From: Algimonas arctica
Lineage (GTDB): Bacteria; Pseudomonadota; Alphaproteobacteria; Caulobacterales; Maricaulaceae
Direction: 5' to 3'
Length of the DNA stretch: 64,000 nucleotides
Assembly (NCBI RefSeq): GCF_014652695.1
Contig: NZ_BMZH01000013.1
Coordinates: 1 to 64,000 of the forward strand
Below are positions 44,137 to 62,266 of the stretch, piece by piece; the stretch's first letter is position 1; each line of letters opens with the position of its first letter. The position numbers and the translations under genes are program-made. Under the pieces are notes generated by a model, which worked only from the letters and a program-made list of their open reading frames with translations, made no database searches and was not told the origin of the DNA.

Positions 44137-45555
44137 TTAAAGCGGGTTTTTTGACCCGTTTAAACCACCGCCAAGCGCGATAAATAGCGACACGGCATTC
44201 TGATCTTCCATACGGCGCGCATCTAACAGGCTTTGTCTCGCAATGAAGAGGTTGCGCTCCGCATCCAAAACTTCAAGATAACTGGCTGTCCCTTCATCAT
44301 AACGCCTTTGCGCTAAAAAGCCGATGCGCTGTTGAACCGTGACCGTCCGCGTTCGCGCGTGAACTAGCTCAGCCAGCCAACGTCGCCCCGCCAACGCGTC
44401 AGACACTTCACGAAACGCCGTCTGCACGACCTTGTCATAATTGGCGACAGATTCCATCTCCTGCGCCTTCGCAAGACCCAAGTCAGCTTCGCGTGCGCCC
44501 CAATCGAAAATGGGTAAATCAATCGACGGTCCGAAGCGCCACGTGAGACTATCTGAACTAAACAAGTCACCCAGATCACTGGACGACAGTCCCGTACGAC
44601 CCGTCAGTGAAATGGTTGGGAAAAAAGCGGCGCGGGCAACAGCAATGTTGGCATTCGCGGCTTTTAGGCTCTGTTCGGCAGCAATAATATCCGGTCTGAC
44701 CAGCAGTAAATCGGACGGTAGACCCGCATCCAACCCAGCGATAAATGTTTGCTCTCCCAACGACAGCCCTTCGGGCAGTGACTTGGGAAGCCGTCCGCCA
44801 ATGAGGACCGTGAGCTGGTTACGTATCGTGGCCGCCGATAATTGTTGCGTACTGAGAGCTTGTTGGGCTTGCGTCAACAGCGCCTCGGCTTGATGAAAAT
44901 CAAGCGCCGACGTCACGCCCGCGTCAAGCCGAAGACGGGCCAATTTGAGGCTCTTCTCGCGTGTTGCTATCGTCTCTGCGGCAAGGGTGATTTGCTCTTC
45001 AGTTTCGATCAGATCGAAATAGGTCGAAGCAACATCTCCGACCAAGGAAAGATAAAAAGCCCGTTGCGCCGACACGGTCGCCAAATATTGTGACCGGGCG
45101 ACTTCGGTTAAATTTTTAACCCGCCCCCAAAAATCAAGCTCATATGATGCAATGCCAACCCCAACATCAAAGCTGTTAAAGGTCACAGCAACCGGATTAT
45201 TGTTACTATCAACACTCGGTGTGCGAGCGCGCACTGCACTGCCGTCAGCGCCGACTGTGGGTAAGCGCCGACTGTCTTGTATGCGGAACTGAGCCCGGGC
45301 TTGTTCAACCCGCGCCGTCGCTGCGAGAAGATCTCGATTATTGTTCAGTGCGGATTCAATAAGGGCGTGAAGCTTGGGGTCATTGAAGTAGTCTTGATAA
45401 CTCAACTCACTGGCAACAATGGTGCCATCAGGACGGTAATCTGCGTCAAAGCTTTGGGCGGTTGGGAGTTCAGTCGTCGTAAGGCTCGGTGTTATGTGCG
45501 CACAACCGGCCAACATCAAAACAGATGCAGCACTTATGGTGAAGATCGGCTTCAT
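44137..45555 (-). CDS. NodT/OprM-type outer membrane efflux lipoprotein
   Basis: Trimeric outer-membrane channel of an RND pump, 472 residues. Signal peptide with lipobox LAGC (Cys18), then two OEP repeats with long coiled helices (for example NNRDLLAATARVEQARAQFRIQDSR and RPDIIAAEQSLKAANANIAVARAAFFPTISLTG). It belongs to the NodT/OprM family. Its start overlaps the pump gene stop by 4 nt, so channel, pump and adaptor form one operon transcribed leftward. Confidence 0.93.
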   Translation of the reverse strand: MKPIFTISAASVLMLAGCAHITPSLTTTELPTAQSFDADYRPDGTIVASELSYQDYFNDPKLHALIESALNNNRDLLAATARVEQARAQFRIQDSRRLPTVGADGSAVRARTPSVDSNNNPVAVTFNSFDVGVGIASYELDFWGRVKNLTEVARSQYLATVSAQRAFYLSLVGDVASTYFDLIETEEQITLAAETIATREKSLKLARLRLDAGVTSALDFHQAEALLTQAQQALSTQQLSAATIRNQLTVLIGGRLPKSLPEGLSLGEQTFIAGLDAGLPSDLLLVRPDIIAAEQSLKAANANIAVARAAFFPTISLTGRTGLSSSDLGDLFSSDSLTWRFGPSIDLPIFDWGAREADLGLAKAQEMESVANYDKVVQTAFREVSDALAGRRWLAELVHARTRTVTVQQRIGFLAQRRYDEGTASYLEVLDAERNLFIARQSLLDARRMEDQNAVSLFIALGGGLNGSKNPL

Positions 45556-48500: not shown

Positions 48501-48737
48501 ACTCATATAGAGGAAGCCCTCAACTCCGTTCAGCTGTTGCTCTATGATCTGAATGACGTTCTGTTCTAACGTCTCAGCGTCAGCGCCCGGATAGACTACC
48601 GAGATGCTGAGAGACGGAGGGGCGACTTCCGGATATTGCTCAACAGGCAAACCACGCAGAGCAATAAAGCCCGACAGCAGAATGCAAAGCGCAATGACCC
48701 AAGCAAAGATTGGGCGGTCAATAAAATATCGCGGCAC
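45552..48737 (-). CDS. RND multidrug efflux pump, HAE1 family
   Basis: Inner-membrane proton-driven pump of the AcrB/MexB type, 1061 residues, with 12 helices and two large periplasmic loops. Visible are the N-terminus MPRYFIDRPIFAWVIALC, proton-relay aspartates in GILVDDAIIVIENVERIM, the PFVRISVEEV segment and the C-terminal half SALYESWAVPL. HAE1 pumps expel hydrophobic and amphiphilic drugs and bile salts. The adaptor gene lies 32 nt upstream. No TetR-type repressor adjoins the operon, unlike acrR-acrAB. Confidence 0.96.
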   Translation of the reverse strand: MPRYFIDRPIFAWVIALCILLSGFIALRGLPVEQYPEVAPPSLSISVVYPGADAETLEQNVIQIIEQQLNGVEGFLYMSSSSQSNGTGSITLTFESGTDIDIAQTEVQNRLSTVEARLPEDVSRQGIQVRQANSGFLQIIALTSKSGELNSTDLGNIASIQVIDELRRVPGVGDVTLFGSEYAMRIWLNPEKVASYGLSPASVLAAVREQNSQTAGGSLGALPNLSDTQITATIITQNRFSTIKQFEQIILLAETGGATVRLKDVARVEIGAQSYATTTTLNGQPMAGMAIQLATSANALATADGVKARMMELQKGLPDDVAWAIPYDTTPFVRISVEEVIKTLLEAMALVFLVMFLFLQSWRATLIPTIVVPIALAGACLGLWVFGFSINVLTLFGMVLAIGILVDDAIIVIENVERIMREEGLPPKEATRKAMDQITGAIIGITLVLVAVFLPMAFFPGSTGGIYKQFSVTLSISILFSALMALTLTPALCATFLKPIVPDDAVDKKEAKGLGRVFRFGTGLFAGFNRWFERLTERYGRATDGILARPIRGLAVFVMLVVLAGFLFVRLPTAFLPVEDQGFLITVVQAPPGATQERTEAAIQPVSEFWMAQPELENLVIVRGFSFFGQGQNNAIMFGPLTDWKDRKAEGSSAGALLGKAMGQFSQIENGNVFVIQPPAIRSLGNASGFSLKLEDRGGLGREALVSAQNQLLGLMSQSAILTGVRPEDQQASPQLRVNIDRPLARSLGLSISDVNNTLAINFGSAFVNEFIMGGRSLQVYMQADAPYRMTAEDVLDLRLPNQSGDLVPFSAFASASWTAGPPSLARYNGYPAMTISGQAASGQSSGAALAEVERLVAMLPQGIDSEWTGISFEEKRSAGQIGALLGLSVLVVFLLLSALYESWAVPLAVLLIVPIGVLGAVLFSMWRGLSADVYFNVGLITIIGLAAKNAILIVEFAIEEEKHGKSPIEAVKSAARLRLRPIIMTSLAFILAMLPLVIADGAGANSRIAVGTGVMGGMVSATVLGIFIVPLLYATIRNRLSRKSPQGSGPMDDTKSGPIT

Positions 48738-48769
48738 TGTTTAGCCTGCCTTTAGTGAAATTGGGAAAG

Positions 48770-49948
48770 TCATTGCCCCGGCTTCATGTCAGAGCCGCCA
48801 CTGGTTTGACCCGCAACGGCGGCATTGTCTTTGACCGACACGCCGGGCCGCAGCTTTTGCAAATTACTGGTGATGACTTTCTCGCCAACCGCTAGACCGC
48901 TATTGATGATCCAGTGATCTCCGGCCATTGGCCCTAATTCAACAGGCTTCACGGCAACTTTTCCTTGACCATCAATGACAAAGACACTCGCCCCTGTCGC
49001 AGAAACTTGGACAGCCCGCTGCGGCACAGAAATGCCGTCTAAACGCGTTCCGACAAAAAACTCTGCGTGCACAAATTCTCCCGGCAAGAGAATTTGATCG
49101 GGATTAGGAAATTCCGCTCTGAGATTGACGGTTCCGGTTGTTTCATTGACCGAGAAGTCAAGGAAATCGACATATCCGCTTTCGGAATAAGGCGTGCCAT
49201 CCCCGAAGTAGAGCTGAACCTTGGTTTTACCATTTTCATCCAAGTCGATCGTTCCGTCCGCAATGGCGCGGCGAACCTTTAGGACGTCTGATGACGCTTG
49301 CGCCACAGTGACATAAACGGGATCCAGCTGCTCGATGCGCGTCATTAGCGTTGCGCCACTCGCACTGACCAACGCTCCTTCCGTAACCTGCGCCCGTCTA
49401 GCCCGGCCTGAAATGGGCGCGCGCACAACGGTATATCCGAGCTGAAGGTTTGCGGCTTCGATTTGGGCTTCAATTTGAGCAATATTCGCATCTGCTTCGC
49501 GGGACGCGGCAATTGCTGAGTCATATTCTTGGCCGCTGATCGCCTGCTCTGCAACCAATGGACGATATCGGTCCACAATGGCGCGGGCATTCGCGGCGGT
49601 CGCTTCCGCACGCTGAAGACTTGCCTTCACCTGTGCCAAACTTGCACGGAGTTCGCGGGGATCAATGCTGAAAAGGGGTTGCCCCTCTTTAACGTCGGTC
49701 CCTTCTTCATAGAGACGTTTTTGGACAATGCCGTTGACGCGTGCGCGGACTTCGGCTTGACGCACAGGTTCCACCCGACCGGGCAATTCGATAATATTTG
49801 GGACTTTCACTTCACGCACCGTAACGGTCTCAACCGCCATCACGGCTGTCCCTAAGGATGGCTGGGATTCCGACGTGGATGTCCCAGAATCAGTACAACT
49901 GATAAGTAAAAGACACGCAGACCATACTAAATGGTGTTTCATTTTCAT
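48770..49948 (-). CDS. RND efflux periplasmic adaptor (MexA/AcrA family)
   Basis: Periplasmic membrane-fusion protein of 392 residues, first gene of the efflux operon. It starts at the ATG at 49948 and has a lipoprotein signal with Cys18 (LLLISC). Domains in order: membrane-proximal and lipoyl halves (VEPVRQAEVRARVNGIVQKRLYEEG), coiled hairpin (about 105-165), second lipoyl half (YTVVRAPISGRA), beta-barrel (about 200-290). Start codons further upstream lie before the signal peptide. Confidence 0.93.
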   Translation of the reverse strand: MKMKHHLVWSACLLLISCTDSGTSTSESQPSLGTAVMAVETVTVREVKVPNIIELPGRVEPVRQAEVRARVNGIVQKRLYEEGTDVKEGQPLFSIDPRELRASLAQVKASLQRAEATAANARAIVDRYRPLVAEQAISGQEYDSAIAASREADANIAQIEAQIEAANLQLGYTVVRAPISGRARRAQVTEGALVSASGATLMTRIEQLDPVYVTVAQASSDVLKVRRAIADGTIDLDENGKTKVQLYFGDGTPYSESGYVDFLDFSVNETTGTVNLRAEFPNPDQILLPGEFVHAEFFVGTRLDGISVPQRAVQVSATGASVFVIDGQGKVAVKPVELGPMAGDHWIINSGLAVGEKVITSNLQKLRPGVSVKDNAAVAGQTSGGSDMKPGQ

Positions 49949-50447
49949 TTCGTATCCATTGAGGGAGTGTGTTCTAAACTTCACCAGTTTTCTATAACGA
50001 TACACTGCGCATGTTCGTGGTTATGCAAAACAAGACAGCGAGAGCCTGAGCTAAGGAAAGTTCACTCACGACGTTTGCGGGGAGTTGGTGATAGCCCTGC
50101 GCTATTACAACCGTTCATTCCTGTAGATTTTCATGCATTTATGTTGGCGCGATCGCATTCGAACTCGACGGGCCGGTGCCTGTCAGAGTGCACCGCGTTT
50201 AATCCGGTGAGTGAGGGCTACAATCTTTTTCATTACACATTTCGGTCATTTAAAACACGTCGTAACCTGATCCGATTGGCCGTGACTATGTATGTCCTCG
50301 GCCCGTCGTCATTAGCGAGACTTCGATCAATATGGCGAACTGTTCGGGATATGGGTCCAATGTAAACCCCCTCGTTTGCTTCAAATGTCTCAAAAGCCCC
50401 AGCGCAAAACGCCTCGGCCTCAAATCGATAAAAAGCATATTTCTTTG
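49949..50447. other. Intergenic region between efflux operon and TonB receptor
   Basis: About 500 nt with no gene I can support. Open frames here (49931-50365 plus; 50233-50493 minus) have odd composition and no recognisable motif. It must contain the leftward efflux promoter. The right end leads into the Fur-like repeats. Confidence 0.5.
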
Positions 50448-50503
50448 TTGCAAATGAGTTGCAATAAAGAAATGACCATATTACGGATGACACTCATTTG
50501 CAA
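50448..50503. promoter_or_regulatory. Inverted Fur-like half-sites upstream of TonB receptor
   Basis: TTGCAAATGAGT (50448-50459) and its exact reverse complement ACTCATTTGCAA (50492-50503) are 32 nt apart. The left arm continues into TTGCAA, giving TTGCAA-ATGAG-TTGCAA. AATGAG/CTCATT arms flanked by TTGCA resemble Fur-type operators as I remember them. They end 11 nt before the GTG start, so bound repressor would block transcription under iron sufficiency. The Fur assignment is inference. Confidence 0.55.
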
Positions 50504-50514
50504 CTGGAGCCATC

Positions 50515-52692
50515 GTGTCGTCTCAATCTCTTCCTCGTATTCTCGCGCTTACAAGCTGCGCAGCATGCCTGTCTCTTCCCGCTTTTGCTGTGGCTCAGCC
50601 CAGTCTGATTGAAAATGAGGCTCAACCCGAAACTTATATTGATCCAATTGATGAGATTGTGGTCACCGCAGCCGGCTTTGAACAAAATTTGAGCCAAGCG
50701 CCGGCAAGTGTCACTCTGATTCCCCGCGCAGAACTTGAACTCATGCGCGTCAACAGCCTTGCCGAAGCCCTGTCTTCCGTTCCTGGCGTGGATATTGGAG
50801 ATGGTGTCGGTAAAACCGGCGGGGCAGAAATTTCTATCCGAGGTATGCCCAGTGATTACACGTTGGTCCTTGTTGATGGGCGCCGTCAAAATGCAGCGGG
50901 CAATGTTACGCCCAACGGTTTCGGCGGGACGTCGTCTGGTTTCGTGCCTCCCGTTTCGGCCATTGAACGGATCGAGGTCGTTCGCGGACCGATGTCCACG
51001 CTTTATGGATCCGACGCCATTGGCGGTGTGATTAACATCATCACCCGCACGGCCACAGACCGCCTACGCGGTGAAGTCGGAATTGACGCAACAATTCAAG
51101 GCGACAGCGAATTTGGCAATGCCTATAATTCCACGTTATATTTGGACGGCCCTGTGGCTGGCGATTTGGTGACTTTCGCGGCACGGGGTCGTTACTACCA
51201 CCGTGACGCTTCGGATCTTACATTTGTCGATACAGATGGAAACGAGATCGAAATATCCAAACGCGGTCCAAGCCCTGTCGAAGCTAAAGTTTGGTCAGTT
51301 GGTGGTCGATTAAACATCCTCCCCAATGACAATCACAAAATCTGGGTTGATGTTGATTTGGCGCGGCAATCTTATGACAATTCTGACGGTCAACTCGGGA
51401 CGCTTGGCACGCGGGGATATGCACCAGAGCTTGCGTTTAATCGCGATCAATATGTTATCGCCCATACTTCCAATATGCTCGGCGGAACGGTGGATTCCGA
51501 TATTACAATTAATACGACGGAGACGATCGGACGCGTCCTGCCTGATGATGTGGCGGGCACACCGCGGCAGCAAGGCGACCCGCGTGAACTAAAAACCAGC
51601 AATACCATTTTTAATTCACGATATTTCAGAGAACTTGGCCAGCATACATTCACGATTGGCGGCCAATTCTGGCACGCGGAAATGAAAGATGGTGTGGCGG
51701 CTCAAACGTTTGAACACGACCAGTGGGCGGCCTTTGCGGAAGACTTATGGCAATTCACGCCCAATTTATCGGCGACGGCCGGAATTCGTTACGACAACCA
51801 TAGCGTCTTTGGCGATCATGTTAGCCCGCGTGGCTACCTTGTCTGGAATGCGACCGAGGCACTCACGCTAAAAGGGGGGGTTAGCAAAGGATTCAAAACC
51901 CCACGGCTGGAGCAAATTGCTAACGGAATTGTTGGCTTTCGCGGGCAAGGCACCATTCCATTTTTAGGAACGCCGTCCCTACAGCCGGAAACCAGCACGA
52001 CCTATGAAGCCGGCGCCTATATTCGCGGCGCGCAAGGTTTGCAGGCCAATGTCACGGTATTTTACAATCAATTTAATGACAAAATCGCGTCCGGACCGAC
52101 AACACCAAACTGCGCCTTTGACTTAACACAAGCAGACTATGATGCGCTGTCTCCGAGTTCAGATTGCCTTGATTATGGCTACTGGCCTCGCGCGGCAACC
52201 AATTCTCAGGACATCAATGTTGACGAAGCCGAAACACGCGGCGTTGAAGCGTCCTTGCGGCGCAACCTTTCTGACGACGTCGATATTTCGGTCAATTACA
52301 CATACACGGAAAGCGAACAGTTAAGCGGTCCAAACGTTGGGGAGCCGCTGGTCAACACACCCGATCACCAACTTAACGCCCGCTTATCATGGCAGGTCAA
52401 TGACCGCCTGAGTAGCTGGCTGCGTGGCGAGTATAGCTCACCCCGATATCGCGGTGCGGGCGAAGCGCAGGAGCAGTTAGGCGACTATAAAAGCTACGCA
52501 CTCGTTCACCTCGGCGGCGCCTATGACGTGTCTGACACCATCACGTTTAGCGCGACGATTTATAATTTGTTGGATGATAATTTCGTCGAGTACGTCCCCT
52601 ACACGTCAAGGGGGTCTGAGGCTTATTCCAACCGTTACGCCATCAATCAGGAACCTCGTCGCCTTTGGATGTCGATGAATGCCAGCTTCTAG
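50515..52692 (+). CDS. TonB-dependent receptor (CirA/FepA-like)
   Basis: Outer-membrane transporter of 725 residues using TonB energy. The start is GTG at 50515, with GGAG 5 nt upstream. A signal peptide (about 1-27) and TonB box region (DEIVVTA) precede the plug domain (SISIRG-like ISIRGMPSDYTLVLVDGRRQN, RIEVVRGPMSTLYGSDAIGGVINIITR) and a 22-strand barrel ending in WMSMNASF. This class imports ferric siderophores or catecholates. It is followed 8 nt later by a PepSY reductase gene, a common iron pairing. The ligand is unknown. Confidence 0.92.
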   Translation: MSSQSLPRILALTSCAACLSLPAFAVAQPSLIENEAQPETYIDPIDEIVVTAAGFEQNLSQAPASVTLIPRAELELMRVNSLAEALSSVPGVDIGDGVGKTGGAEISIRGMPSDYTLVLVDGRRQNAAGNVTPNGFGGTSSGFVPPVSAIERIEVVRGPMSTLYGSDAIGGVINIITRTATDRLRGEVGIDATIQGDSEFGNAYNSTLYLDGPVAGDLVTFAARGRYYHRDASDLTFVDTDGNEIEISKRGPSPVEAKVWSVGGRLNILPNDNHKIWVDVDLARQSYDNSDGQLGTLGTRGYAPELAFNRDQYVIAHTSNMLGGTVDSDITINTTETIGRVLPDDVAGTPRQQGDPRELKTSNTIFNSRYFRELGQHTFTIGGQFWHAEMKDGVAAQTFEHDQWAAFAEDLWQFTPNLSATAGIRYDNHSVFGDHVSPRGYLVWNATEALTLKGGVSKGFKTPRLEQIANGIVGFRGQGTIPFLGTPSLQPETSTTYEAGAYIRGAQGLQANVTVFYNQFNDKIASGPTTPNCAFDLTQADYDALSPSSDCLDYGYWPRAATNSQDINVDEAETRGVEASLRRNLSDDVDISVNYTYTESEQLSGPNVGEPLVNTPDHQLNARLSWQVNDRLSSWLRGEYSSPRYRGAGEAQEQLGDYKSYALVHLGGAYDVSDTITFSATIYNLLDDNFVEYVPYTSRGSEAYSNRYAINQEPRRLWMSMNASF

Positions 52693-52699
52693 GTAACCA

Positions 52700-53884
52700 A
52701 TGTCATTTCGTAAAATTATGTTCTGGAGCCATCTGGTCGCGGGAGTGGCAGCCGGCGTCTTTATCCTGCTCATGTCCGTGACCGGCGTCCTGCTGACCTA
52801 CGAAAAAAATATGGTCAACATGGCGCGAAATTCGGTCAACATCGCCGTGCGAAACGATGCTCAGCGGCTAAGCTTTGATAGCTTAGCCGATCGGGCGCGA
52901 ACGTTGGACCGCGCGGGGGCATCGCTGATAGTCAGCCGTAATCCGGATGCGCCCGTTCTTATCCAACAACGCGGTCAGGATCCGATCCTTCTAAACCCCT
53001 ACACGGGGGATCAGATCACTGACCCGAGTCATAAACTCGATGCGTTTTTCGGAACCGTTACGCAATTACATCGCTGGCTCGCCATGACAGGGGAAAGCCG
53101 CAATACCGGACGCGCCATAACGGGAGCGGCCAATCTAGTCTTTCTGTTTATTGTCATCAGTGGTCTCTATTTGTGGCTGCCCAAAATTTGGCGCTGGTCC
53201 TTTATTCGGCTTAATTTGTTTTTCCGAAGTAAACTTCCGACGTCGAAAGCCCGTGATTATAACTGGCACCACGTCTTTGGGATCTGGGCGCTTATTCCGC
53301 TATTCTTCATTGTTATTTCGGGCGTGGTGATTTCCTACTCCTGGGCTGGAAACCTCGTTTATAAAGTCGTTGGCGAAGATGTTCCTCAGCGCGGCGGACG
53401 CCCCGGAGCGAGCCCAATTGACGATACGGCGGCAACAGGAGACGTGAAGCCAATTTCCGCTTCACTGCAGGACGCCTATGAGGCCGCCGTGGCGGACGCC
53501 GATACCCGATGGACATCGACCCGCATCACAATCCCGCGCAAGGCGGATGACAGTGACGCCAGCATCGCCTTTTACTACGGCTCAGGGGTCGTCGCTAATC
53601 ACAGCATTAGCTACACGTTTGATCGTAAAGCGTCGACTATCACGGAAACAAAAACGTCTAGAGATGCAAGCCGGGGCAGTAAAATACGGCGCTGGCTCCG
53701 CTTTATTCATACGGGCGAACAATACGGTATCATCGGCCAGACGATCGCGGGCCTGTCCACCCTCGCGGCTTGCTTTCTGGTTTACACGGGCCTGGCCCTT
53801 AGCTTCAGGCGGCTCATACTTCCCCTCTTTCGTCGCCGCCATATTGCCGCACGCCCTAAGCAGGAGACCCGAAAATACAGGTGA
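52700..53884 (+). CDS. PepSY-associated membrane protein (siderophore-iron reductase type)
   Basis: Inner-membrane protein of 394 residues with four helices: about 8-32, 145-165 (AANLVFLFIVISGLYLWLP), 195-220 (WHHVFGIWALIPLFFIVISGVVISY) and 340-365. PepSY-like periplasmic loops lie between them. Conserved histidines (SHLV, LHRWL, WHHV, FIHTGE) fit heme ligands in the PiuB/FsrB-like family, thought to reduce ferric siderophores. It lies 8 nt after the TonB receptor, so the two are cotranscribed. Confidence 0.87.
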   Translation: MSFRKIMFWSHLVAGVAAGVFILLMSVTGVLLTYEKNMVNMARNSVNIAVRNDAQRLSFDSLADRARTLDRAGASLIVSRNPDAPVLIQQRGQDPILLNPYTGDQITDPSHKLDAFFGTVTQLHRWLAMTGESRNTGRAITGAANLVFLFIVISGLYLWLPKIWRWSFIRLNLFFRSKLPTSKARDYNWHHVFGIWALIPLFFIVISGVVISYSWAGNLVYKVVGEDVPQRGGRPGASPIDDTAATGDVKPISASLQDAYEAAVADADTRWTSTRITIPRKADDSDASIAFYYGSGVVANHSISYTFDRKASTITETKTSRDASRGSKIRRWLRFIHTGEQYGIIGQTIAGLSTLAACFLVYTGLALSFRRLILPLFRRRHIAARPKQETRKYR

Positions 53885-53968: not shown

Positions 53969-54014
53969 ATTCACATTATGAATACTGAGTATTTCATCAT
54001 TCAATTTCAAAATA
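53969..54014 (+). promoter_or_regulatory. LysR-type box, copy 1 (upstream of DoxX operon)
   Basis: Tandem dyads ATTCA-N5-TGAAT and AATA-CTGAG-TATT followed by TCATTCAATTTCAA. It matches 60766-60811 at 38 of 46 positions. T-N11-A cores typical of LysR sites are present. It ends 70 nt before the doxX ATG, the same distance and orientation as copy 2 relative to the SDR gene. Confidence 0.72.
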
Positions 54015-54084
54015 ATAAGGCGTTCCCCTAAGTGCTATTCAACGGAACACGGCGTTCCAATTATGAATGACTCAGGAGATTACA

Positions 54085-54498
54085 ATGGTGAAATATGCAA
54101 AATGGGCCGGGTACGTTTTAGGCCTCTTTATGGTCGCGATGGGCGCGATGAAGTTCTTCGGCGATGTTCCGATCTTCATGTTATTGGAAAACAATTTGGC
54201 CTCCAAATATGGCTTAGAGCTCAGCTTCATTGACCCCGGTTTTAAATACCTCACAGGCGCGCTCGAGCTAATCGCAGGCGGCCTTTTGCTCTTCGGGCAA
54301 CGGTTGATTGGCGGACTTCTCTCGATTGCCGTCATTGGCGGCGCGATCCTGTCTCATCTCTTTGTCCTTGGGGTATCGACGCCCATGTCCGCCGAAGCAG
54401 GCGCAGAAAAAAGCCCGATGCTTTTCATTATGGCGGTCATGTTTTTCATGGTTTCTCTTTGGGTCACCTGGGGCGCTAAACAGGCCGGCACGAAGTAG
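54085..54498 (+). CDS. DoxX-like membrane protein
   Basis: Membrane protein of 137 residues with four helices, of the DoxX/DoxD-like superfamily. The pattern WAGYVLGLFMVAMGAMKFFGD, then YLTGALELIAGGLLLFGQRLIGGLLSIAVIGGAI is characteristic. Family members occur with redox and thiol-stress genes; the reaction is not established. The start at 54085 is set by AGGAG about 9 nt upstream. It heads the operon behind LysR-box copy 1. Confidence 0.85.
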   Translation: MVKYAKWAGYVLGLFMVAMGAMKFFGDVPIFMLLENNLASKYGLELSFIDPGFKYLTGALELIAGGLLLFGQRLIGGLLSIAVIGGAILSHLFVLGVSTPMSAEAGAEKSPMLFIMAVMFFMVSLWVTWGAKQAGTK

Positions 54499-54604
54499 AC
54501 ATAACCGTAAACTTCAAACCCTACTCCGTCAGAGGGCGAGACGAGGCGCATGATTGCCCCTCGCCGTCTGACGTCTCACAAATTTTCTAGTCAGGTGAAC
54601 CGTC

Positions 54605-56230
54605 ATGGCCGCTCAAGCAAAGCCGAAAATTCGCCGTGGAATAATTGCGCTATTGTGGTGCGGGATCGTCATAGTCATTGGCGTTCTCTTATTCTTGATC
54701 CTCAGCGCGTTCGGCGCATTGCGGTTCTGGCAGGCGGAAAAACAGCCCCAAGGCGTGACAGATCTTCGCTTTTCTGCCGCTGACCTCCCGTTTGTCCACG
54801 CAGCTGATCTCGAAAACTCGCTACCATTTCTCGCCAGCGCTGCGCTTGATCTTGACGGGGACGGACAGGATGAGCTGTTCTTAGGTGGCGGTGATCGCCA
54901 AGCCGATCAATTCTTTGCGTTTCAAGATGGTCGGTTTGTGCCGCTCAACATCACGGTCGATAAAGGTGACATTGACGCCACGCACGGTGCCGTCACTTTG
55001 GATATGGATAATGACGGGGATACCGACATGCTCGTCGCGCGGGAAAGCGGCGTTTGGTATCACGAAAACCAAGGCGGAACTTTCAGCAGCGTAAACTTAA
55101 ATCTGCCACTCGCAGACAATACGACGCCATTGTCCATCGGTCTGGCGGACATCAACCAAGACGGTCTCGCCGACATGTATGTTTCGGGCTACATCAAGAT
55201 TGAACGCACCGAAGGCGAAACCAATTTCTCCAACGGGTATGGCGGTTACAGCTATCTCTTCCTCAACGAAGGGAGTGGACAGTGGACAGACATTTCGAAA
55301 ACCGCTGGGGTTTGGCGTCAGCACAACACGTTCATCGGCCTGTTTGCAGATCTCGATAACGACCGCGATAGCGATCTGATTATTGCGCAAGATACGGGCA
55401 AGGTCGAAATGTATAGTAACAATGGCGACCTCACGTTTAGCCCGATTGCGAACCCATCCGACTATTCCTATCCCATGGGCATCGCCGCGGGCGACTATGA
55501 TAATGACGGCCTGATTGATCTTTATTTTTCTAATGTCGGCTATACCTTGCCGCCGGCCTTACTGCGCGGAAACCTGTCAGACGACGATGTGTTTAATCCG
55601 TCTTACATGCTGTTCCACAATGATGGGGCGCTGAAATTTTCCGACACGTCCGTGTCCATGAATGCGGCGCGTTACGGTTTCGGGTGGGGGACGGTCTTCG
55701 CAGACATGAACCTAGATGGGCGAGAGGATATGCTCGCCGCACAAAATTATGCGCGCTTCCCAGCCAATAAATTATTGGAACATTACCCCGGTAAAATATT
55801 GCAAAATTATGGGGACACGTTTCAACCTGTCGAAAAAGTTGCGGGGGCCGAAAATAAGCTATTCGGGATTTCCCCAATCGTGTCCGATTTCAACGGTGAC
55901 GGCTGGCCAGACCTCGTCTGGGCCAACCTTAATGGCGAGTCCCTCGCCTACATCAATGAAGGTAGTCATGATAATTGGATCACGGTGAGGCTGCCCAATC
56001 AGGCCCGCTCGATCAATGCGCGTGTCACTGTGGAGGATGAACAAGGCCAAAAACAAATTAAACAGTTCATCACGTCACAAGGCCTTGGCTCGGACCAATC
56101 CCATGACCTGATGTTTGGGCTCGGCACATCGGCGGCCGTGAATTCCATCACCGTTGAATTTCAAGATGGAACCACCCGCCAGATCGAAACGCCTAGCATG
56201 GCCAGCGTGGTGACAATTGATGGCCCATAA
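54605..56230 (+). CDS. FG-GAP repeat protein with ASPIC/UnbV domain
   Basis: Membrane-anchored exported protein of 541 residues. An N-terminal helix (about 12-40) is followed by seven calcium-binding-like FG-GAP/VCBS units: DLDGDGQDE, DMDNDGDTD, DINQDGLAD, DLDNDRDSD, DYDNDGLID, DMNLDGRED and DFNGDGWPD, forming a probable seven-bladed propeller. A C-terminal ASPIC/UnbV domain (about 455-541, NWITVRLPNQ, SQGLGSDQSHDLMFGLG) closes it. CRTAC1-like family; function unknown in bacteria. It follows doxX by 106 nt and overlaps the next gene. Confidence 0.88.
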   Translation: MAAQAKPKIRRGIIALLWCGIVIVIGVLLFLILSAFGALRFWQAEKQPQGVTDLRFSAADLPFVHAADLENSLPFLASAALDLDGDGQDELFLGGGDRQADQFFAFQDGRFVPLNITVDKGDIDATHGAVTLDMDNDGDTDMLVARESGVWYHENQGGTFSSVNLNLPLADNTTPLSIGLADINQDGLADMYVSGYIKIERTEGETNFSNGYGGYSYLFLNEGSGQWTDISKTAGVWRQHNTFIGLFADLDNDRDSDLIIAQDTGKVEMYSNNGDLTFSPIANPSDYSYPMGIAAGDYDNDGLIDLYFSNVGYTLPPALLRGNLSDDDVFNPSYMLFHNDGALKFSDTSVSMNAARYGFGWGTVFADMNLDGREDMLAAQNYARFPANKLLEHYPGKILQNYGDTFQPVEKVAGAENKLFGISPIVSDFNGDGWPDLVWANLNGESLAYINEGSHDNWITVRLPNQARSINARVTVEDEQGQKQIKQFITSQGLGSDQSHDLMFGLGTSAAVNSITVEFQDGTTRQIETPSMASVVTIDGP

Positions 56231-56894
56231 CCCTTCAGAAACACATTGGATCCGGCTCGCGGGTTGGGCCGGACTTCTCGGCGCCTTGTTGGTGGGTGTC
56301 GGCGAATTTTCGATGCAGTTCACACCCCGTGGCGGTATCGAGGATATGACGTCCTATCTCTACTTCAATGATATCAGCGCGACGCGGTTAAGCTTTGGAC
56401 ATTTTACTGCCGTGCTATCTGCGCCGCTCTATCTTTTGGGCTATTACTTTTTGTCCAAGCAATTGGAACCGGCTGGACGCCTACAATCCAAGCTGTTTTT
56501 CCTGATCGGCGCCTATGCCTTTGCCCTTGGAACCGCGTGGATTGGTCAAAGATTTTTCATTGCCTCGACCGTGCATGAAATTGCCAATGGGCAAGCTCTG
56601 AGCGGACTATTATCTCTTTTCTCCGAGCACAACGAACCGTTCGTCAATGTGCTCCGGCTGGCCATGCTTCTGGTTTCAGGGCTCTGGATCAAACTCATCC
56701 TGACCGGGCGCACGCATCTGCCAAAATGGATGGCTGTGTTTAGCCCTATCGTTTTGCTGGCCGTCATGGCCGGCCTGTATTTCTTTAAAACCAAGATCGG
56801 GCTTTACGTGTTCCCCGTGGCGATGAACGCGACCCATTTCATTGTCTTTGGTTTAGCCTTACTGACGACGCGTCCACCAAAAGCACTGACCTGA
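56220..56894 (+). CDS. Membrane protein of unknown function
   Basis: Integral membrane protein of 224 residues from the ATG at 56220, overlapping the preceding stop (56228-56230). About seven hydrophobic segments are visible, including WIRLAGWAGLLGALLVGVGEF and FTAVLSAPLYLLGYYFL. Two histidines (GHF, NATHF) and several conserved-looking glycines stand out. I recognise only a general DUF-type multi-pass protein. Tight coupling places it in the doxX operon. Confidence 0.7.
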   Translation: MAHNPSETHWIRLAGWAGLLGALLVGVGEFSMQFTPRGGIEDMTSYLYFNDISATRLSFGHFTAVLSAPLYLLGYYFLSKQLEPAGRLQSKLFFLIGAYAFALGTAWIGQRFFIASTVHEIANGQALSGLLSLFSEHNEPFVNVLRLAMLLVSGLWIKLILTGRTHLPKWMAVFSPIVLLAVMAGLYFFKTKIGLYVFPVAMNATHFIVFGLALLTTRPPKALT

Positions 56895-56896
56895 TT

Positions 56897-57301
56897 TTGG
56901 AAAAGGTGGCACGATACGCACTGCTATTGCTGGCCCTTGTCGGTCTATTCGCGGGCGGACAATTATCGCTTCAACATGTCAATTTTGGGAAGGCCTGTCC
57001 CATGTTGGGGCCTATTCCCGCCTGCTTCATCGTATTTTCGGGGTATTTATCCATCGGGGTCAGCGCCGTGATTGGCGCCACCCCAAAGGCAAAAATGTTG
57101 TTTTACCTCGGATGGATTCCTGTAGCCGGACTGGCATTTTTCGGCGTTTCTTCAGAGTTACTCGGCCATGACATCTGCCCGCTGGGCGGCTTCGGTGTTC
57201 CCCAATGTGTCTATTCATTTGTGATGGCTATGACGGGCTTAGGGCTTTTTTTGCTGCATCGCCGTTTTGCCGCTCAGCTTAAAATGTCGGAGGAGTTTTA
57301 G
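56897..57301 (+). CDS. Small four-helix membrane protein with paired cysteines
   Basis: Protein of 134 residues starting with TTG at 56897, two nt after the previous stop; GTG at 56906 is an alternative. Four hydrophobic helices and four cysteines in two loops, GKACPMLGPIPACF and DICPLGGFGVPQC. The CPxxG patterns suggest disulfide formation or metal binding on the periplasmic side, but no family is recognised. The GGAGGAG at its 3' end is the ribosome-binding site of the next gene. Confidence 0.65.
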   Translation: MEKVARYALLLLALVGLFAGGQLSLQHVNFGKACPMLGPIPACFIVFSGYLSIGVSAVIGATPKAKMLFYLGWIPVAGLAFFGVSSELLGHDICPLGGFGVPQCVYSFVMAMTGLGLFLLHRRFAAQLKMSEEF

Positions 57302-57302
57302 A

Positions 57303-58598
57303 ATGTCTCTTGCAAGGCTGTTTGCTTTTTGGGTGGGCCTCGCTAGCTTATCGGCCTGCTCAACGACCTATTATCTGCCAAAGCCCCCTAATATTTACAC
57401 GGCCGACGCCCCTTACCCGCATTCGGCCATTCAAGCGGACCGTCAATCCGCTGAAAACACAATTATCTATGTTACAGACCGAACACCGATCACAGACGAC
57501 GGTCAGGTGGACTTTGGATCCGAACGCTCCGGGATACTCCGATTTGGAACGGCCAATATTACGATAGGCAAGAATAAAAGCTGGGGTAATCTGGTTGATG
57601 CAGCCCGGTCTGATGTCCCGAGGATAAAGCTTGAAGCGGACCTGTCCTCGGTCACACCGAAAGGGTCGTTCCCCGAAACGCCGATGAAGTTTTCATTTGT
57701 CGATGGGGTTATTAGCCTAGACCCTGACGCAGTTACCGACCTATCGCACTCCCGAAACGTGCTGACTGCGCTCATCCGCGAGCAGATGAAAACGTCGCAA
57801 AATCGAGACGTCATCGTGTTCATACACGGCTATAATACGTCCTTTGACGAAGCCCTCTTCGCCCTCAATGATATCCACCATTATAGCGGGCGCTACGGTG
57901 TGCCTATCGCCTATACATGGCCTTCGGTTGACGGGAATATATTTGGATATTTTCGCGATCAAGGATCAGCGGACTACACGGTCTATCACCTAAAACAGTT
58001 CTTGCGTACCCTTATGGAAATGCCGGACCTCAGAAAAATACATGTCATCGCCCATAGTCTCGGCACCCAGACAACCACATCCGCTTTACGAGAACTTCTG
58101 ATTGAGGCCCGGGCAGCGGGTCATAATCCCCTCAAAACGTTTAAGATCGAAAACCTAATTATGGCTGCCCCCGATCTGGACTATGGCATCGTCACGCAGC
58201 GGCTTGTCGCAGAGCAATTTGGAACCGCCTTTGGGCGAATTACTGTTTATACAAACGCCAGCGATCGCGCCTTAAGCGTGTCCAATATATTACATAGCGG
58301 CATCCGCTTTGGGAAATTACTGCCCGGGCAGGAAGAAACGCGCGAGAAAGACATTTTTGAAAGCGTGGAAAATGTGAATTTCATTACGGTGAAAGGTGGC
58401 TCCGGTGGTTTTTTCAATCACGGCTATTTCACTAAAAACCCGGCTACTCTGTCGGATATTATCACGCTCATCACCAACCCCAGCGATCCCGGAACGCCGG
58501 CGCGGCCTCTAAAGCAGCGCGATGGGAATTTTTGGGAAATGGACGCTGACTATCTCAAAATTTCGATGTCACCAACCGCATGGCTTGGCCCCGCGTGA
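57303..58598 (+). CDS. Alpha/beta-hydrolase lipoprotein (DUF900 family)
   Basis: Lipoprotein of 431 residues from the ATG at 57303, preceded by GGAGGAG. The lipobox SAC (Cys19) follows a short signal. The DUF900/COG4782 hydrolase fold is seen in IIYVTDRTP, VIVFIHGYNTSFDEALF, PIAYTWPSVDG and the nucleophile elbow IAHSLGTQTT. It is probably a periplasm-facing esterase; the substrate is unknown. It sits 1 nt after the previous stop. Confidence 0.85.
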   Translation: MSLARLFAFWVGLASLSACSTTYYLPKPPNIYTADAPYPHSAIQADRQSAENTIIYVTDRTPITDDGQVDFGSERSGILRFGTANITIGKNKSWGNLVDAARSDVPRIKLEADLSSVTPKGSFPETPMKFSFVDGVISLDPDAVTDLSHSRNVLTALIREQMKTSQNRDVIVFIHGYNTSFDEALFALNDIHHYSGRYGVPIAYTWPSVDGNIFGYFRDQGSADYTVYHLKQFLRTLMEMPDLRKIHVIAHSLGTQTTTSALRELLIEARAAGHNPLKTFKIENLIMAAPDLDYGIVTQRLVAEQFGTAFGRITVYTNASDRALSVSNILHSGIRFGKLLPGQEETREKDIFESVENVNFITVKGGSGGFFNHGYFTKNPATLSDIITLITNPSDPGTPARPLKQRDGNFWEMDADYLKISMSPTAWLGPA

Positions 58599-58634
58599 GC
58601 CTCAATCATAACGACCCATTGAAGGAGACATACT

Positions 58635-59846
58635 TTGCAGACCCGTGTTAAATTTGAATCGAAAAAAGGTTTTCACCTGTCCGGAATTTTGCATCAGCCT
58701 GATGTCATTGATGTACAGGCCTATGCAATTTTAGCCCATTGTTTTACCTGCACTAAAAGCCTCACGGCCGGGCAGAATATCGCGGAGACGTTGTCGTCAA
58801 ACGGTATCGCGACATTACGGTTTGATTTCACGGGTCTGGGCGCGAGCAAGGGACAGTTTGCCGAGACTAGCTTCAGCACCAATGTTGATGACTTACAAAG
58901 CGCGGCGGCGTTTCTCACCGACAATTACGCGGCGCCGCAAATCATGGTGGGGCACTCACTGGGCGGCACAGCCGTGTTGGCGGCTGCGGCAAACATAGGG
59001 ACCGTAAAGGCAGTCGCCACAATTGGATCGCCGGCGTCGCCTGACCACATTCTACATATGCTGGAAGATAGGCTGGACGACATAGCCAGTGCTGAAGAAA
59101 CGACCGTCACTTTGGCCGGACGTGAGTTTAAGTTTAAACAGTGCTTCGTTGATGATGTAAGAAACTATGAATTGGACATCGGAACATTAGGTAAGGCCAT
59201 CATGGTTTTACACGCCCCGTTTGATGATACCGTGCCGATTAGTGAGGCTACGAAAATATTCATCGCAGCCAAACATCCCAAAAGCTTTATGTCCCTCGAC
59301 AAAGCCGATCACTTATTATCGCGCGCTGAGGACTCTCTTTATGCTGGAGATGTTATCGCCTCATGGGCAAAACGGTTCATCGTCCTTGATGCAAACGCCA
59401 AAACATCAGACCCAGATGGCGGAGTCACAGTCACTGGCGAAACCTCAAACGGATTTTACAGTATTGTTCAGGCCGGTGTACACCGGTTTATCGCGGATGA
59501 ACCCCTTTCATATGGCGGAACCAATAAAGGACCAACGCCTTATGATTACCTTGGGGCTGCTTTGGGTGCCTGCACATCCATGACCCTGAACGGTTATGCT
59601 CGGCGTAAGACTATGACCGTCTCTCAAGTGTCTGTGAATGTATCTCATACCCGCATTCACGCAAAGGATTGCGACACATGCGAGACGTCGGACGGAAAGG
59701 TTGATCAGTTTACACGGGTGATTTCTATCATCGGGGATATCACCGATGCAGAACGAAAAAGGATGCTAGAAATCGCGGATAAGTGCCCGGTTCATCGCAC
59801 GCTGGAAAACGAAATTAGAATCGTCACGAAATTGAGCGCGTTATAA
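58635..59846 (+). CDS. Bifunctional alpha/beta hydrolase-OsmC protein
   Basis: Fusion protein of 403 residues, starting with TTG at 58635 behind a strong GAAGGAG 7 nt upstream. The N-terminal half (1-255) is a cytosolic alpha/beta hydrolase with nucleophile elbow GHSLGG (106-111). The C-terminal half (about 265-403) is OsmC-like, with the two peroxidatic cysteines in LGACTSMTLNGYA and DKCPVHRTLE. OsmC proteins reduce organic hydroperoxides with thiols. It is the last gene of the doxX operon, converging on the LysR gene. Confidence 0.92.
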   Translation: MQTRVKFESKKGFHLSGILHQPDVIDVQAYAILAHCFTCTKSLTAGQNIAETLSSNGIATLRFDFTGLGASKGQFAETSFSTNVDDLQSAAAFLTDNYAAPQIMVGHSLGGTAVLAAAANIGTVKAVATIGSPASPDHILHMLEDRLDDIASAEETTVTLAGREFKFKQCFVDDVRNYELDIGTLGKAIMVLHAPFDDTVPISEATKIFIAAKHPKSFMSLDKADHLLSRAEDSLYAGDVIASWAKRFIVLDANAKTSDPDGGVTVTGETSNGFYSIVQAGVHRFIADEPLSYGGTNKGPTPYDYLGAALGACTSMTLNGYARRKTMTVSQVSVNVSHTRIHAKDCDTCETSDGKVDQFTRVISIIGDITDAERKRMLEIADKCPVHRTLENEIRIVTKLSAL

Positions 59847-59859
59847 GCTCCCTGAAAAG

Positions 59860-60771
59860 CTACGCCCCAAAGGTGTTCGATGCGTCGCGCAGCAGGTTTC
59901 TCAACCAGCTTTGCGCGGGGTGATTGCCGAGGCGGGAATGCCAAACCATGTCAATACTTCTGACGCTAGGCGGAGTCGCCACCGGGCAAGTCGAGACGAA
60001 CATTCCGGATTTCTCCTCATAAACTTTAGCCACGCTGGCAGGGCATGTCAGAATAAGGTCCGTGGTCTCAAGGATGAGCGGCGCTGGCCCGTATGTCGGC
60101 ATCGCATAAGCGACATGGCGTGTATGCCCGCGGTCCGCGAGAGCTTCGTCCACCCAATTGCGGCGCTCCCCCATCGGGTTAACCAGCAAATGCCCGGCCG
60201 ACGAGTAGCGAGCCAGAGTCGGGCGCTGGCCGACCATTGGGTGTTCAGGCCGCATGACGCAGACCCAATTCTCGGCAAACAGGGGCTCGGAAACAAATCG
60301 CTCAGGCGTATCCGCCCAATTCAACAAAGCAATATCCGCTTTCTGAGTATCAAGATATTCGCCGATATGGCGGCTTGGCGTAATAATTTGCAAAACAACG
60401 CCGGGGGCTGTTTTCCGCATTCGTTCGAGCAATTTCGGAAATAAGGTAATCGTCGCGTAATCCGGCGTTGCAATCGTAAACGCGCGCTTTGACGTCGCCG
60501 GGTCAAAGGATGCCCCATCCAAGGCATTTTCAATCTCGCTGAGTGAGGTACTGATCGGCCCACTTAATTCCAACGCCCACGGCGTCGGCTTCATCCCGTC
60601 AGGGGCCCGTATGAACAGCTCATCTCCCAGACGGTCTCTCAGGCGCGTTAAGGCATTTGAGAAAGCGGGTTGGGACAGCCCAATTGACTGCGCAGCCCGC
60701 GTCACATGCCGCTCACGCATCAATGCGTCGAACACGACAAGCAGGTTGAGATCAAGCAAACGTAAATTCAT
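59860..60771 (-). CDS. LysR-family regulator, probable controller of the flanking operons
   Basis: LysR-type activator/repressor of 303 residues from the ATG at 60771. The winged helix reads LLDLNLLVVFDALMRERHVTRAAQSIGLSQPAFSNALTRLR; the ligand domain follows (about 90-300) with FTIATPDYATITLFPKLLERM. The subgroup resembles NodD/PcpR-like regulators. It is divergent from the SDR gene, and LysR-box copy 2 overlaps its start codon, implying autorepression. The effector is unknown. Confidence 0.9.
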   Translation of the reverse strand: MNLRLLDLNLLVVFDALMRERHVTRAAQSIGLSQPAFSNALTRLRDRLGDELFIRAPDGMKPTPWALELSGPISTSLSEIENALDGASFDPATSKRAFTIATPDYATITLFPKLLERMRKTAPGVVLQIITPSRHIGEYLDTQKADIALLNWADTPERFVSEPLFAENWVCVMRPEHPMVGQRPTLARYSSAGHLLVNPMGERRNWVDEALADRGHTRHVAYAMPTYGPAPLILETTDLILTCPASVAKVYEEKSGMFVSTCPVATPPSVRSIDMVWHSRLGNHPAQSWLRNLLRDASNTFGA

Positions 60772-60811
60772 GATATGAATATAGACTATTCCATCATTCA
60801 ATTTCAATATA
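60766..60811 (+). promoter_or_regulatory. LysR-type box, copy 2 (LysR/SDR intergenic)
   Basis: ATTCA-N5-TGAAT and AATA-TAGAC-TATT dyads followed by CCATCATTCAATTTCAA. It matches copy 1 (53969-54014) at 38 of 46 positions, 31 of 36 in the right part. The CAT of the LysR start (60769-60771) lies inside it. It ends 65 nt before the SDR ATG at 60877. Confidence 0.75.
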
Positions 60812-60876
60812 CCTTTTTAGCGGCATATAAGTCATGTTGATTGGAGCGCACGTCTCCACAAATGAGAGGCTTATCC

Positions 60877-61626
60877 ATGCGAAGGCTTTCCGGAAAGACA
60901 GCTGTCATCACGGGCGGCAATAGCGGCATCGGCCTTTGCACCGCAAAGACCTTCATTGATGAAGGTGCCCGCGTGTTTATTTTCGGCCGCAACGCAGAGA
61001 AATTAGCGCGGGCCAAAGAAACGTTGGGAAAAGATATTTTTACGATCCAAGGCGATGTTACCCGCGCTGATGACCTCGCGCGTCTCGCTGATACCGTAAA
61101 GGCCGGATCGGGTAAGGTCGATATTTTGTTCGTCAATGCGGGCGTCGCCGAATTTATGCCGCTGACAGTCGCTGACGAGACGCATTTTGATAGGTTATTC
61201 GACACCAATGTTCGCGGTGCTTATTTCACTATTAAAGCGCTGGAACCGCGCCTGAATGACGGCGCTTCCATCATTCTGACAACCTCTGCTGCCAATAATA
61301 TGGGGCTGACGGGATCAAGTGTCTATGCCGCATCAAAAGCGGCCTTGCGCTCTTTTGCAAAAACCTTGTCTGCTGAATTCATCGATCGCAAGATCCGCGT
61401 CAATGCGATTAGCCCCGGCCCGATAGATACCCCCCTATACAGCCGCATGGGCATGACAGAAGACGAACAGACTGACGCCGGAAAAGCTATTCTCGCGCGT
61501 GTTCCAGTTGGCCGCATGGGCCTACCCTCAGAAATTGCGAAATCCGTTCTGTTTTTAGCGTCAGACGACAGCAGCTATATGGCTGGATCCGAGATCATCG
61601 TCGATGGCGGCATGAGTCAGATATAA
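60877..61626 (+). CDS. Short-chain dehydrogenase/reductase
   Basis: Classical SDR oxidoreductase of 249 residues from the ATG at 60877, preceded by AGAGG. NADP-type cofactor motif TGGNSGIG (12-19), VNAG motif, catalytic Ser with YAASK (Tyr-x-x-x-Lys), and the C-terminal AGSEIIVDGGMSQ. It probably reduces a carbonyl or quinone. It is the first gene facing the LysR regulator, a typical LysR target arrangement. Upstream in-frame starts (60841, 60862) are possible but lack a ribosome-binding site. Confidence 0.9.
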   Translation: MRRLSGKTAVITGGNSGIGLCTAKTFIDEGARVFIFGRNAEKLARAKETLGKDIFTIQGDVTRADDLARLADTVKAGSGKVDILFVNAGVAEFMPLTVADETHFDRLFDTNVRGAYFTIKALEPRLNDGASIILTTSAANNMGLTGSSVYAASKAALRSFAKTLSAEFIDRKIRVNAISPGPIDTPLYSRMGMTEDEQTDAGKAILARVPVGRMGLPSEIAKSVLFLASDDSSYMAGSEIIVDGGMSQI

Positions 61627-61711: not shown

Positions 61712-62266
61712 ATGACTAACTTTACGCTACACACCGAAGAAACAGCTCCCGAAGGTAGCAAGGCGCTGCTCGCTAAGTCAAAATCCGCTTACGGCATGAT
61801 CCCTGGCCTGCATGCCGTCATGGCTGAAGCGCCCGGTCTGCTTGAAGCCTACAAAACAGTGGGCGACTTGTTCGTAAACTCTAGCTTTGACAAAGACGAA
61901 ATCACTGTTGTTTGGCAGACCATTAATGTTGAAAATGCCTGCCACTATTGCGTTCCCGCGCATACTGGCATTGCCCAGACCATGAGGGTGGACGACGCGA
62001 TCACAAACGCATTGCGAGACAAAACGCCGCTGCCGACTGCGCATCTGGAAGCCCTTCGTGACTTTACACTCAGCGTAATGCGGGATCGCGGCAATGTTGA
62101 GGACGCCAAAGTACAAGCGTTTCTAAGAGCTGGTTACACGAAACAGAATGTTCTCGAAGTCGTTCTTGGCTACGCTCAGAAAATCATGTCGAACTACACA
62201 AACCATTTGGCAAAAACGCCTGTCGATAAGGGGTTCCAAAAGTATGAATGGCAAGGCGCTGCTTAA
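61712..62266 (+). CDS. Carboxymuconolactone decarboxylase/AhpD-like protein
   Basis: Helical protein of 184 residues in the AhpD/CMD superfamily. The redox motif ENACHYCVPAH supplies CxxC at Cys77/Cys80 and His84, as in AhpD-like peroxidase-related proteins that act on peroxides or as thiol reductants. It is 85 nt after the SDR gene on the same strand; AAAAGGAAA before the ATG is a plausible ribosome-binding site. It joins OsmC and DoxX as a further thiol-redox element of this region. Confidence 0.88.
   Translation: MTNFTLHTEETAPEGSKALLAKSKSAYGMIPGLHAVMAEAPGLLEAYKTVGDLFVNSSFDKDEITVVWQTINVENACHYCVPAHTGIAQTMRVDDAITNALRDKTPLPTAHLEALRDFTLSVMRDRGNVEDAKVQAFLRAGYTKQNVLEVVLGYAQKIMSNYTNHLAKTPVDKGFQKYEWQGAA

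Follow-up and report, generated by a model that had tools for sequence, protein, structure and literature searches.

A conserved operator over a LysR-type gene in Algimonas arctica and its probable second, lineage-specific copy ahead of a neighbouring DoxX-like to OsmC operon

The genome of Algimonas arctica (assembly GCF_014652695.1) carries two similar 46-nt elements in the first 64,000 nucleotides of contig NZ_BMZH01000013.1, the stretch analysed here and called the window. One of them, copy 2, overlaps the start codon of a gene for a LysR-type transcriptional regulator (LTTR), which is divergent from a unit encoding a short-chain dehydrogenase/reductase (SDR) and an AhpD-like protein. The other, copy 1, lies 5′ of a six-gene operon extending from a DoxX-like gene to an OsmC-fusion gene (Table 1). 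Judged from sequence, copy 2 is a conserved operator that would serve the autoregulation of the LysR gene as well as its divergent SDR/AhpD-like unit. We consider it likely that both places hold one and the same LysR recognition site and that copy 1 brings the DoxX-like to OsmC operon under LysR; as far as searched, copy 1 is restricted to this lineage, where it is best understood as a second target of the regulator.

The positions of the elements, their identity at 38 of 46 positions and their distance of 65-70 nt from rightward genes had been proposed in a preliminary description of this DNA, together with the overlap of copy 2 with the LysR start codon, and all of these points were verified. 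The DoxX-like ATG at 54085, preceded by AGGAG, begins 70 nt past copy 1 and the SDR ATG at 60877 begins 65 nt past copy 2, both being orthologue-supported starts, and the LysR ATG (60771-60769) falls inside copy 2. The best 46-nt match obtained in 2000 single-base shuffles of both upstream regions was 30. A joint pattern allowing up to 3 mismatches found 2 matches within the window (0.00 expected) and 2 in the whole genome of 3.25 Mb, with 0 for the reversed control, and a BLAST search of the own genome with 161 bases spanning copy 1 returned copy 2 (E 1.6e-6). Both copies hold ATTCA-N5-TGAAT, which is a T-N11-A box, plus AATA-N5-TATT, and both share the tail CATTCAATTTCAA followed by a few A/T. 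In the manner of an LTTR operator, the T-N11-A dyad TTCATGATATGAA of copy 2 lies in a divergent promoter beside the regulator's own gene and is kept in orthologues.

The conservation of the element was assessed with a sequence-only model, R1, for which 16 LysR-proximal operators were used, namely copy 2 and those of 15 other loci; copy 1 and locus L044 were excluded. Loci (L) and genomes (G) carry our own numbers. When R1 was applied to the own genome, where 150 of 1058 first-look candidates were scored, copy 2 and copy 1 were recovered with the scores given in Table 1, and the third-ranked match reached 17 bits (E 0.024) and lies within an open frame. A scan of named genomes for LysR relatives gave 312, from which the best 80 were kept, and the 19 best are L035-L053. 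In 16 of these 19 loci the LysR start codon lies within an element of equal length. No element was found over the lysR start in L041, L049 and L052, and L041 has only a weak R1 match (12.8 bits, E 0.096). In L049 (11348-11393) and L052 (11307-11349) an operator is situated about 0.4 kb beyond the lysR 3′ end, with none ahead of lysR.

Conservation is unevenly distributed within the element. Among 15 sequences the first dyad had a mean pairwise identity of 0.80, the tail one of 0.72 and the middle, which holds the second dyad, one of 0.46; the spacer gave 0.29, the candidate −10 box 0.50, the leader 0.26 and the start of the LysR coding sequence 0.67. As the middle is poorly conserved, the second dyad is a feature of close relatives alone. 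The tandem dyads and common tail described earlier are thus present in each copy, but the second dyad is restricted in its distribution. The codons following the LysR start are AAT and TTA or TTG in 15 of the 16 element-bearing loci, while those of loci without the element, as read from the sequence, are mostly AAC or CT-type leucine codons; this pattern argues for constraint on the DNA. A protein-coding reading of copy 2 was also considered, as the LysR frame can be prolonged across the element from an in-frame TTG, which is ATG in L025, with two amino-acid changes between the window and L025. It was rejected because the pattern persists in the DNA of many more distant orthologues and no LysR gene contains copy 1.

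The element and the regulator gene also co-occur. R1 searches of 398 genomes of the order and 279 of the class employed stricter filters, by which weak sites are lost. LysR matches at E 1e-50 or better were present in 15 of the 398 order genomes, six of them (the own genome, G359, G141, G189, G095 and G104) at an identity of at least 46% and the other nine at 36-38%. R1 matched six order genomes at E 0.001, and these are the same six. Four of them (own, G359, G141 and G104) fed the model and G095 and G189 did not, the LysR locus of G189 being a near-copy of that of G141. At E 0.01, R1 matched 18 of the 19 genomes reached from LysR loci; of the four whose locus is outside R1, three were matched (L049, L052 and L044, which is a near-copy of the model member L043) and one, L041, was not. 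The five matching genomes of the class are the own genome, two model members, G632 and G516. The match in G632 is new and adjoins a LysR of 32% identity, and that in G516 is weak and partial with no LysR match beside the site. Sixty relatives were searched, 17 of them from the same genus and several incomplete; none of the 17 gave a LysR match at E 1e-40.

The gene content opposite LysR is less constant. An SDR gene occupies this place in the window, L035, L036, L039 and L041, and the AhpD-like gene adjoins it in the window, L035 and L036, where the divergent LysR/SDR/AhpD-like order recurs. In L040 a transporter of MMPL type is found opposite LysR, with similar frames in four related loci, and in other loci small secreted-looking proteins take this position. 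As the genes opposite LysR vary among loci, the operator looks older than its present targets. In L043 and L046 a conserved divergent frame of 31 hydrophobic amino acids ending in MLG lies about 100-205 nt from the LysR start, and it was seen by eye also in L027 and L028; it may encode a small membrane peptide under LysR control.

The regulator has the domain composition of an LTTR, with an N-terminal HTH_1 and a LysR substrate-binding domain. The solved LTTR chains 1uth, 2uye, 2uyf and 5ae5 head the profile ranking (1uth 4.9e-71, 2uye 5.3e-71), of which 1uth, 2uye and 5ae5 are DntR/NagR/NahR-type. A NahR-type site starts with ATTCA and ends with TGAT. Together with 2y7k, this type comprises the closest solved relatives of the window's LysR and shares the common LTTR layout with a site near −65; the neighbours here are, however, SDR/AhpD-like genes and a DoxX-like operon rather than aromatic degradation genes, and the relationship is at subfamily distance. 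Chain 2Y7K is named DntR in a passage of PMC4730206. The best NCBIfam model is BsrA (PA2121 of Pseudomonas aeruginosa; NF050187), which at 202 bits is far below the curated cut-off of 480. T-N11-A sites, one of them ahead of bsrA itself, are described for BsrA in excerpts of PMC8407307. BsrA binds 765 regions with little conservation, whereas here two well-matched sites are found in one genome. OxyR belongs to the same LysR family, but the score against its model was 36.7 bits with a cut-off of 329 (NF008361), and the OxyR chain 4x6g was matched at 5.6e-12 versus 4.9e-71 for 1uth. By profile, the regulator thus resembles DntR-type aromatic sensors more than OxyR. Cysteine-based sensing was considered and set aside: Cys171, Cys243 and Cys262 are common to the five LysR proteins that are closest (window, L035-L038), and Cys243 occurs only in these five among 20 proteins, which is a hint only.

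In a tree of 41 proteins the window's LysR groups with two from Paracoccaceae (L035 and L036; support 95/86); together with those of Loktanella and Hellea, these form a group of five that has full support. As Hellea (G359) belongs to the window's own family, the tree fits a LysR gene that moved between lineages.

The predicted LysR promoter inside copy 2 is one of 3 promoter-like matches of a consensus scan in the stretch (0.4 expected), and the LysR transcript would begin near its ATG and be leaderless. On the SDR side, the TATAAG at 60826 would set the T-N11-A box near −65 (hand-reckoned); the consensus scan does not call this box. LTTR promoters usually have a recognition site near −65 and activation sites near −35 and −10, according to the sections of PMC4730206 and PMC8407307 dealing with them. 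In the control that we propose, the element would be the recognition site of the LysR encoded next to copy 2. Sitting on its own promoter and start codon at copy 2, LysR would be autoregulated; with a small co-inducer bound, it would contact the T-N11-A site near −65 and a further position near −35 and so activate the divergent SDR/AhpD-like unit. In this lineage, control by the same LysR would extend through copy 1 to the adjacent operon from DoxX-like to OsmC. Binding and activation by LysR at either element are what we infer from these arrangements.

Several observations at copy 1 weigh against such control of the operon. The register that holds TATAAG behind copy 2 holds only TAAGTG behind copy 1, which is no good −10 box. 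The consensus scan called no rightward promoter behind copy 1; the only promoter-like match there points left and lies inside the element (1 found, 0.5 expected). Among 20 DoxX-family loci searched, the site was present at the window's own and at none of the other 19, and no site was found in 11 larger loci carrying DoxX or DUF900. In Hellea AM-377-K14, relatives of the LysR, the operator, DoxX, DUF900 and the OsmC fusion occur together and the small membrane protein is partly matched; here too no site lies ahead of DoxX despite LysR and its operator nearby. The expectation that the motif would be found ahead of orthologues was accordingly borne out for the best LysR loci and not for relatives of the DoxX-like operon. 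A single site (E 0.01) is present in 17 of the 18 R1-positive genomes reached from LysR loci. Hellea AM-377-K14 has a second operator (L136:1499-1547, 23.4 bits), ahead of a small protein with repeated Gly/Tyr-rich units and with a TATATAG box behind it.

The genes of the two units are listed in Table 1. The six genes of the operon (54085-59846) are co-directional with gaps of at most 106 nt, and 13 nt separate the last of them from the convergent LysR gene. Directly upstream of copy 1 (45552-53884) the window encodes an RND pump with a membrane fusion protein, a TonB receptor and a PepSY_TM protein. The names DoxX and AhpD given to two of the proteins in the preliminary description are retained here as likeness only, as family matches were below cut-off: DoxX_2 (PF13564) at 15.5 of 26.3 bits, with PF07681 DoxX not listed at E 1, and for the AhpD-like protein TIGR01926 at 44.1 of 81.8, TIGR00778 at 17.5 of 27.8 and Pfam CMD (carboxymuconolactone decarboxylase) at 17.5 of 23 bits. 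The AhpD-like protein does match a solved AhpD chain. The small membrane protein had no Pfam match at 0.001 and no NCBIfam match at 0.01; its Cys-Pro...Cys motifs, also found in the relative in L174, are a candidate thiol or metal site. A tendency of the two units to stay together without LysR was considered and not adopted: of 17 genomes with both a DoxX and an AhpD-like match, 4 hold the two matches within about 8 kb (G000, G105, G190 and G185), two of these 4 being from one genus, and this is suggestive only.

Table 1. Elements, promoter features and genes of the two units, with positions in the window
Feature	Position	Strand	Evidence
Copy 1, LysR-type operator 5′ of DoxX-like gene	53969..54014	+	R1 29.6 bits, E 2.7e-6 genome-wide, outside the model; 38/46 to copy 2
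Copy 2, LysR/SDR intergenic operator over LysR start codon	60766..60811	+	R1 44.8 bits, itself in the model
Predicted LysR promoter TTGAAA-18-TATATT inside copy 2	60778..60807	-	10/12 consensus matches
Candidate SDR −10 box TATAAG	60826..60831	+	Putative; CATAT-type box at similar distance in many orthologues, identity 0.50
LysR-type regulator, 303 aa	59860..60771	-	Pfam HTH_1 1.4e-17, LysR_substrate 2.9e-22
SDR oxidoreductase, divergent from LysR	60877..61626	+	adh_short_C2 1.4e-60; closest chains 4bms, 4bmn, alcohol/short-chain dehydrogenase
AhpD-like/carboxymuconolactone-decarboxylase-like protein, CHYC motif	61712..62266	+	PDB 6e8l AhpD 3.2e-35
DoxX-like membrane protein, first operon gene	54085..54498	+	DoxX_2 E 0.02; 65% relative in L025 (Hellea)
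FG-GAP/ASPIC (UnbV) protein	54605..56230	+	FG-GAP_3 1.5e-37, UnbV_ASPIC 4e-11
DUF6796 membrane protein	56217..56894	+	DUF6796 1.9e-16
Small membrane protein, two Cys-Pro...Cys motifs	56897..57301	+	Relatives in L174, L179
DUF900 alpha/beta hydrolase, lipoprotein-like signal	57303..58598	+	DUF900 4.9e-52; LSAC lipobox read from sequence
Alpha/beta hydrolase-OsmC fusion, last gene, convergent with LysR	58635..59846	+	OsmC 1.2e-15, Hydrolase_4 1.6e-11

Relatives of the operon genes recur in other company. L174, from the same family, encodes a sigma-70 region 2/4 protein of the size of an extracytoplasmic function (ECF) sigma factor, then a zf-HC2 protein and a second similar small protein, and carries a cassette of DoxX/MauE-like (below cut-off), ASPIC (73%), DUF6796 (77%), small membrane (40-45%) and DUF900 (47%) proteins, with no LysR or OsmC matches in the locus. 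Inserted in this cassette (L174:5687-12895) are two DedA/VTT-looking proteins, the one scanned being VTT-like just below cut-off. In L179 (587-9770), AhpD-like and CMD genes are followed by DUF2282, MNIO, DUF2063 and DoxX, and this run leads directly into ASPIC, DUF6796, small membrane protein and DUF900. L178 has MNIO, ASPIC, DUF6796, DUF900, DoxX and AhpD-like matches in the order of L179; these two loci (genomes G105 and G190) are from one genus, and in L178 only the matched genes were scanned. On contig C2 of the own genome (L194:6679-10496), DUF2282, MNIO, DUF2063-like and DoxX-like frames and a DUF900 paralogue stand in a row, the DUF2063-like and DoxX-like frames being named by their resemblance to L179. 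The sole MNIO match of this genome lies there (G000:C2:405602-406390) and none in the window, and DUF2282 had no match among the window proteins scanned with Pfam, small open reading frames being outside that scan.

The DUF2282/MNIO/DUF2063/DoxX run is that of bufferin operons, which ASPIC, DUF6796 and DUF900 genes like those of the window adjoin in L178 and L179. The window differs from these operons and from the Caulobacter sigma-F regulon in having no MNIO gene and a LysR site instead of ECF sigma/NrsF control. Bufferins chelate copper, and additional conserved genes are reported at extremely low proportions in their clusters, as stated in portions of PMC12452194. In Caulobacter, sigma-F controls DUF2282/DUF692/DUF2063/DoxX genes in a response to chromium and cadmium, and extracts of PMC3511200 report that these genes are not induced by peroxides, paraquat or diamide. 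Bufferin-type genes with ASPIC-DUF6796-DUF900 possibly constitute an unrecognised accessory cassette. Our literature searches found no work joining DUF2282 and DUF692 with DUF900, UnbV and FG-GAP, none on LysR with DoxX, OsmC and ASPIC, none on a LysR-type regulator with DoxX, short-chain dehydrogenase and AhpD, and none on LysR with carboxymuconolactone decarboxylase and a divergent short-chain dehydrogenase.

The LysR next door is the most likely binder because of the sequence match, its uniqueness in the genome and the co-occurrence with the LysR gene, and on these grounds the earlier suggestion of one regulator for both units is likely, with the reservation that the site is not conserved at DoxX loci. 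For copy 2 the case is stronger than the preliminary description could show. That the elements bind some other regulator is very improbable. Sites away from a lysR start do occur, namely in L136, in L225 (20.7 bits, with no LysR match beside it) and 3′ of lysR in L049 and L052, but the motif accompanies the LysR gene across the order, the element overlaps the LysR start codon in 16 loci and the genome of L136 does have the LysR. Rather unlikely, too, is that copy 1 persists mainly as a decoy site or as the leftover of a recent local duplication and that the DoxX-like operon is under other control. Copy 1 is closer to copy 2 (38/46) and to the Hellea operator (37/46) than to the other 13 operators (25-36/46), which together with the missing sites at other DoxX loci and the uncalled rightward promoter would suit such an origin; however, no LysR coding remnant was read by eye beside copy 1, and the distance to the start codon is alike at both copies.

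A further reading concerns function, is compatible with LysR control and overlaps with the reading we prefer. The DoxX-like to OsmC operon could be mainly a metal/envelope-stress cassette of the bufferin kind (MNIO RiPP, a ribosomally synthesised and post-translationally modified peptide), and LysR could be a secondary or indirect controller; we hold this to be a real possibility, with the balance somewhat against it. It draws on the gene order of L179 and L178, the DUF900 paralogue after DUF2282 and MNIO on contig C2, the ECF-sized sigma factor and zf-HC2 protein ahead of the cassette in L174, and the answer of sigma-F genes to chromium and not to peroxides, paraquat or diamide, as far as given in PMC3511200. 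It is tempered by the only MNIO match being on another contig, by the common genus of L178 and L179 and by no bufferin precursor being recognised in the window's operon. One may also speculate, more doubtfully, that a conserved bufferin-type cassette of DoxX-like, ASPIC, DUF6796, Cys-rich small membrane protein and DUF900 lipoprotein hydrolase shifts between controllers, these being a bufferin operon promoter, an ECF sigma/anti-sigma pair and LysR. Here a horizontally acquired LysR, its operator copied ahead of the cassette, would let an organic redox or aromatic signal switch on metal/envelope defence.

Under the preferred control by LysR, the co-inducer would probably be a redox-active stress compound of some kind, for instance a small aromatic or a quinone-like molecule, and the two units together would serve envelope/redox or metal-associated detoxification. 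A hydroperoxide or electrophile response had been proposed at the outset. The LysR profile is nearest to DntR-type and not OxyR, and that signal becomes one of several readings, metal or envelope stress being at least as likely. The likely function shifts in this direction, though not decisively, because the operon families recur beside bufferin genes or an ECF-like sigma factor and because sigma-F genes answer metals.

The regulatory design described here and its parts are of known kind, and the link to metal-defence gene clusters is unexpected. An uncharacterised LysR clade gains a defined operator with a co-occurrence test. The two elements would offer a worked case of regulon growth, in which an old autoregulatory site has been joined by a new one at an adjacent operon. 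Furthermore, ASPIC, DUF6796 and DUF900 genes of unknown function become connected with bufferin-type stress clusters, so that their role can be tested.

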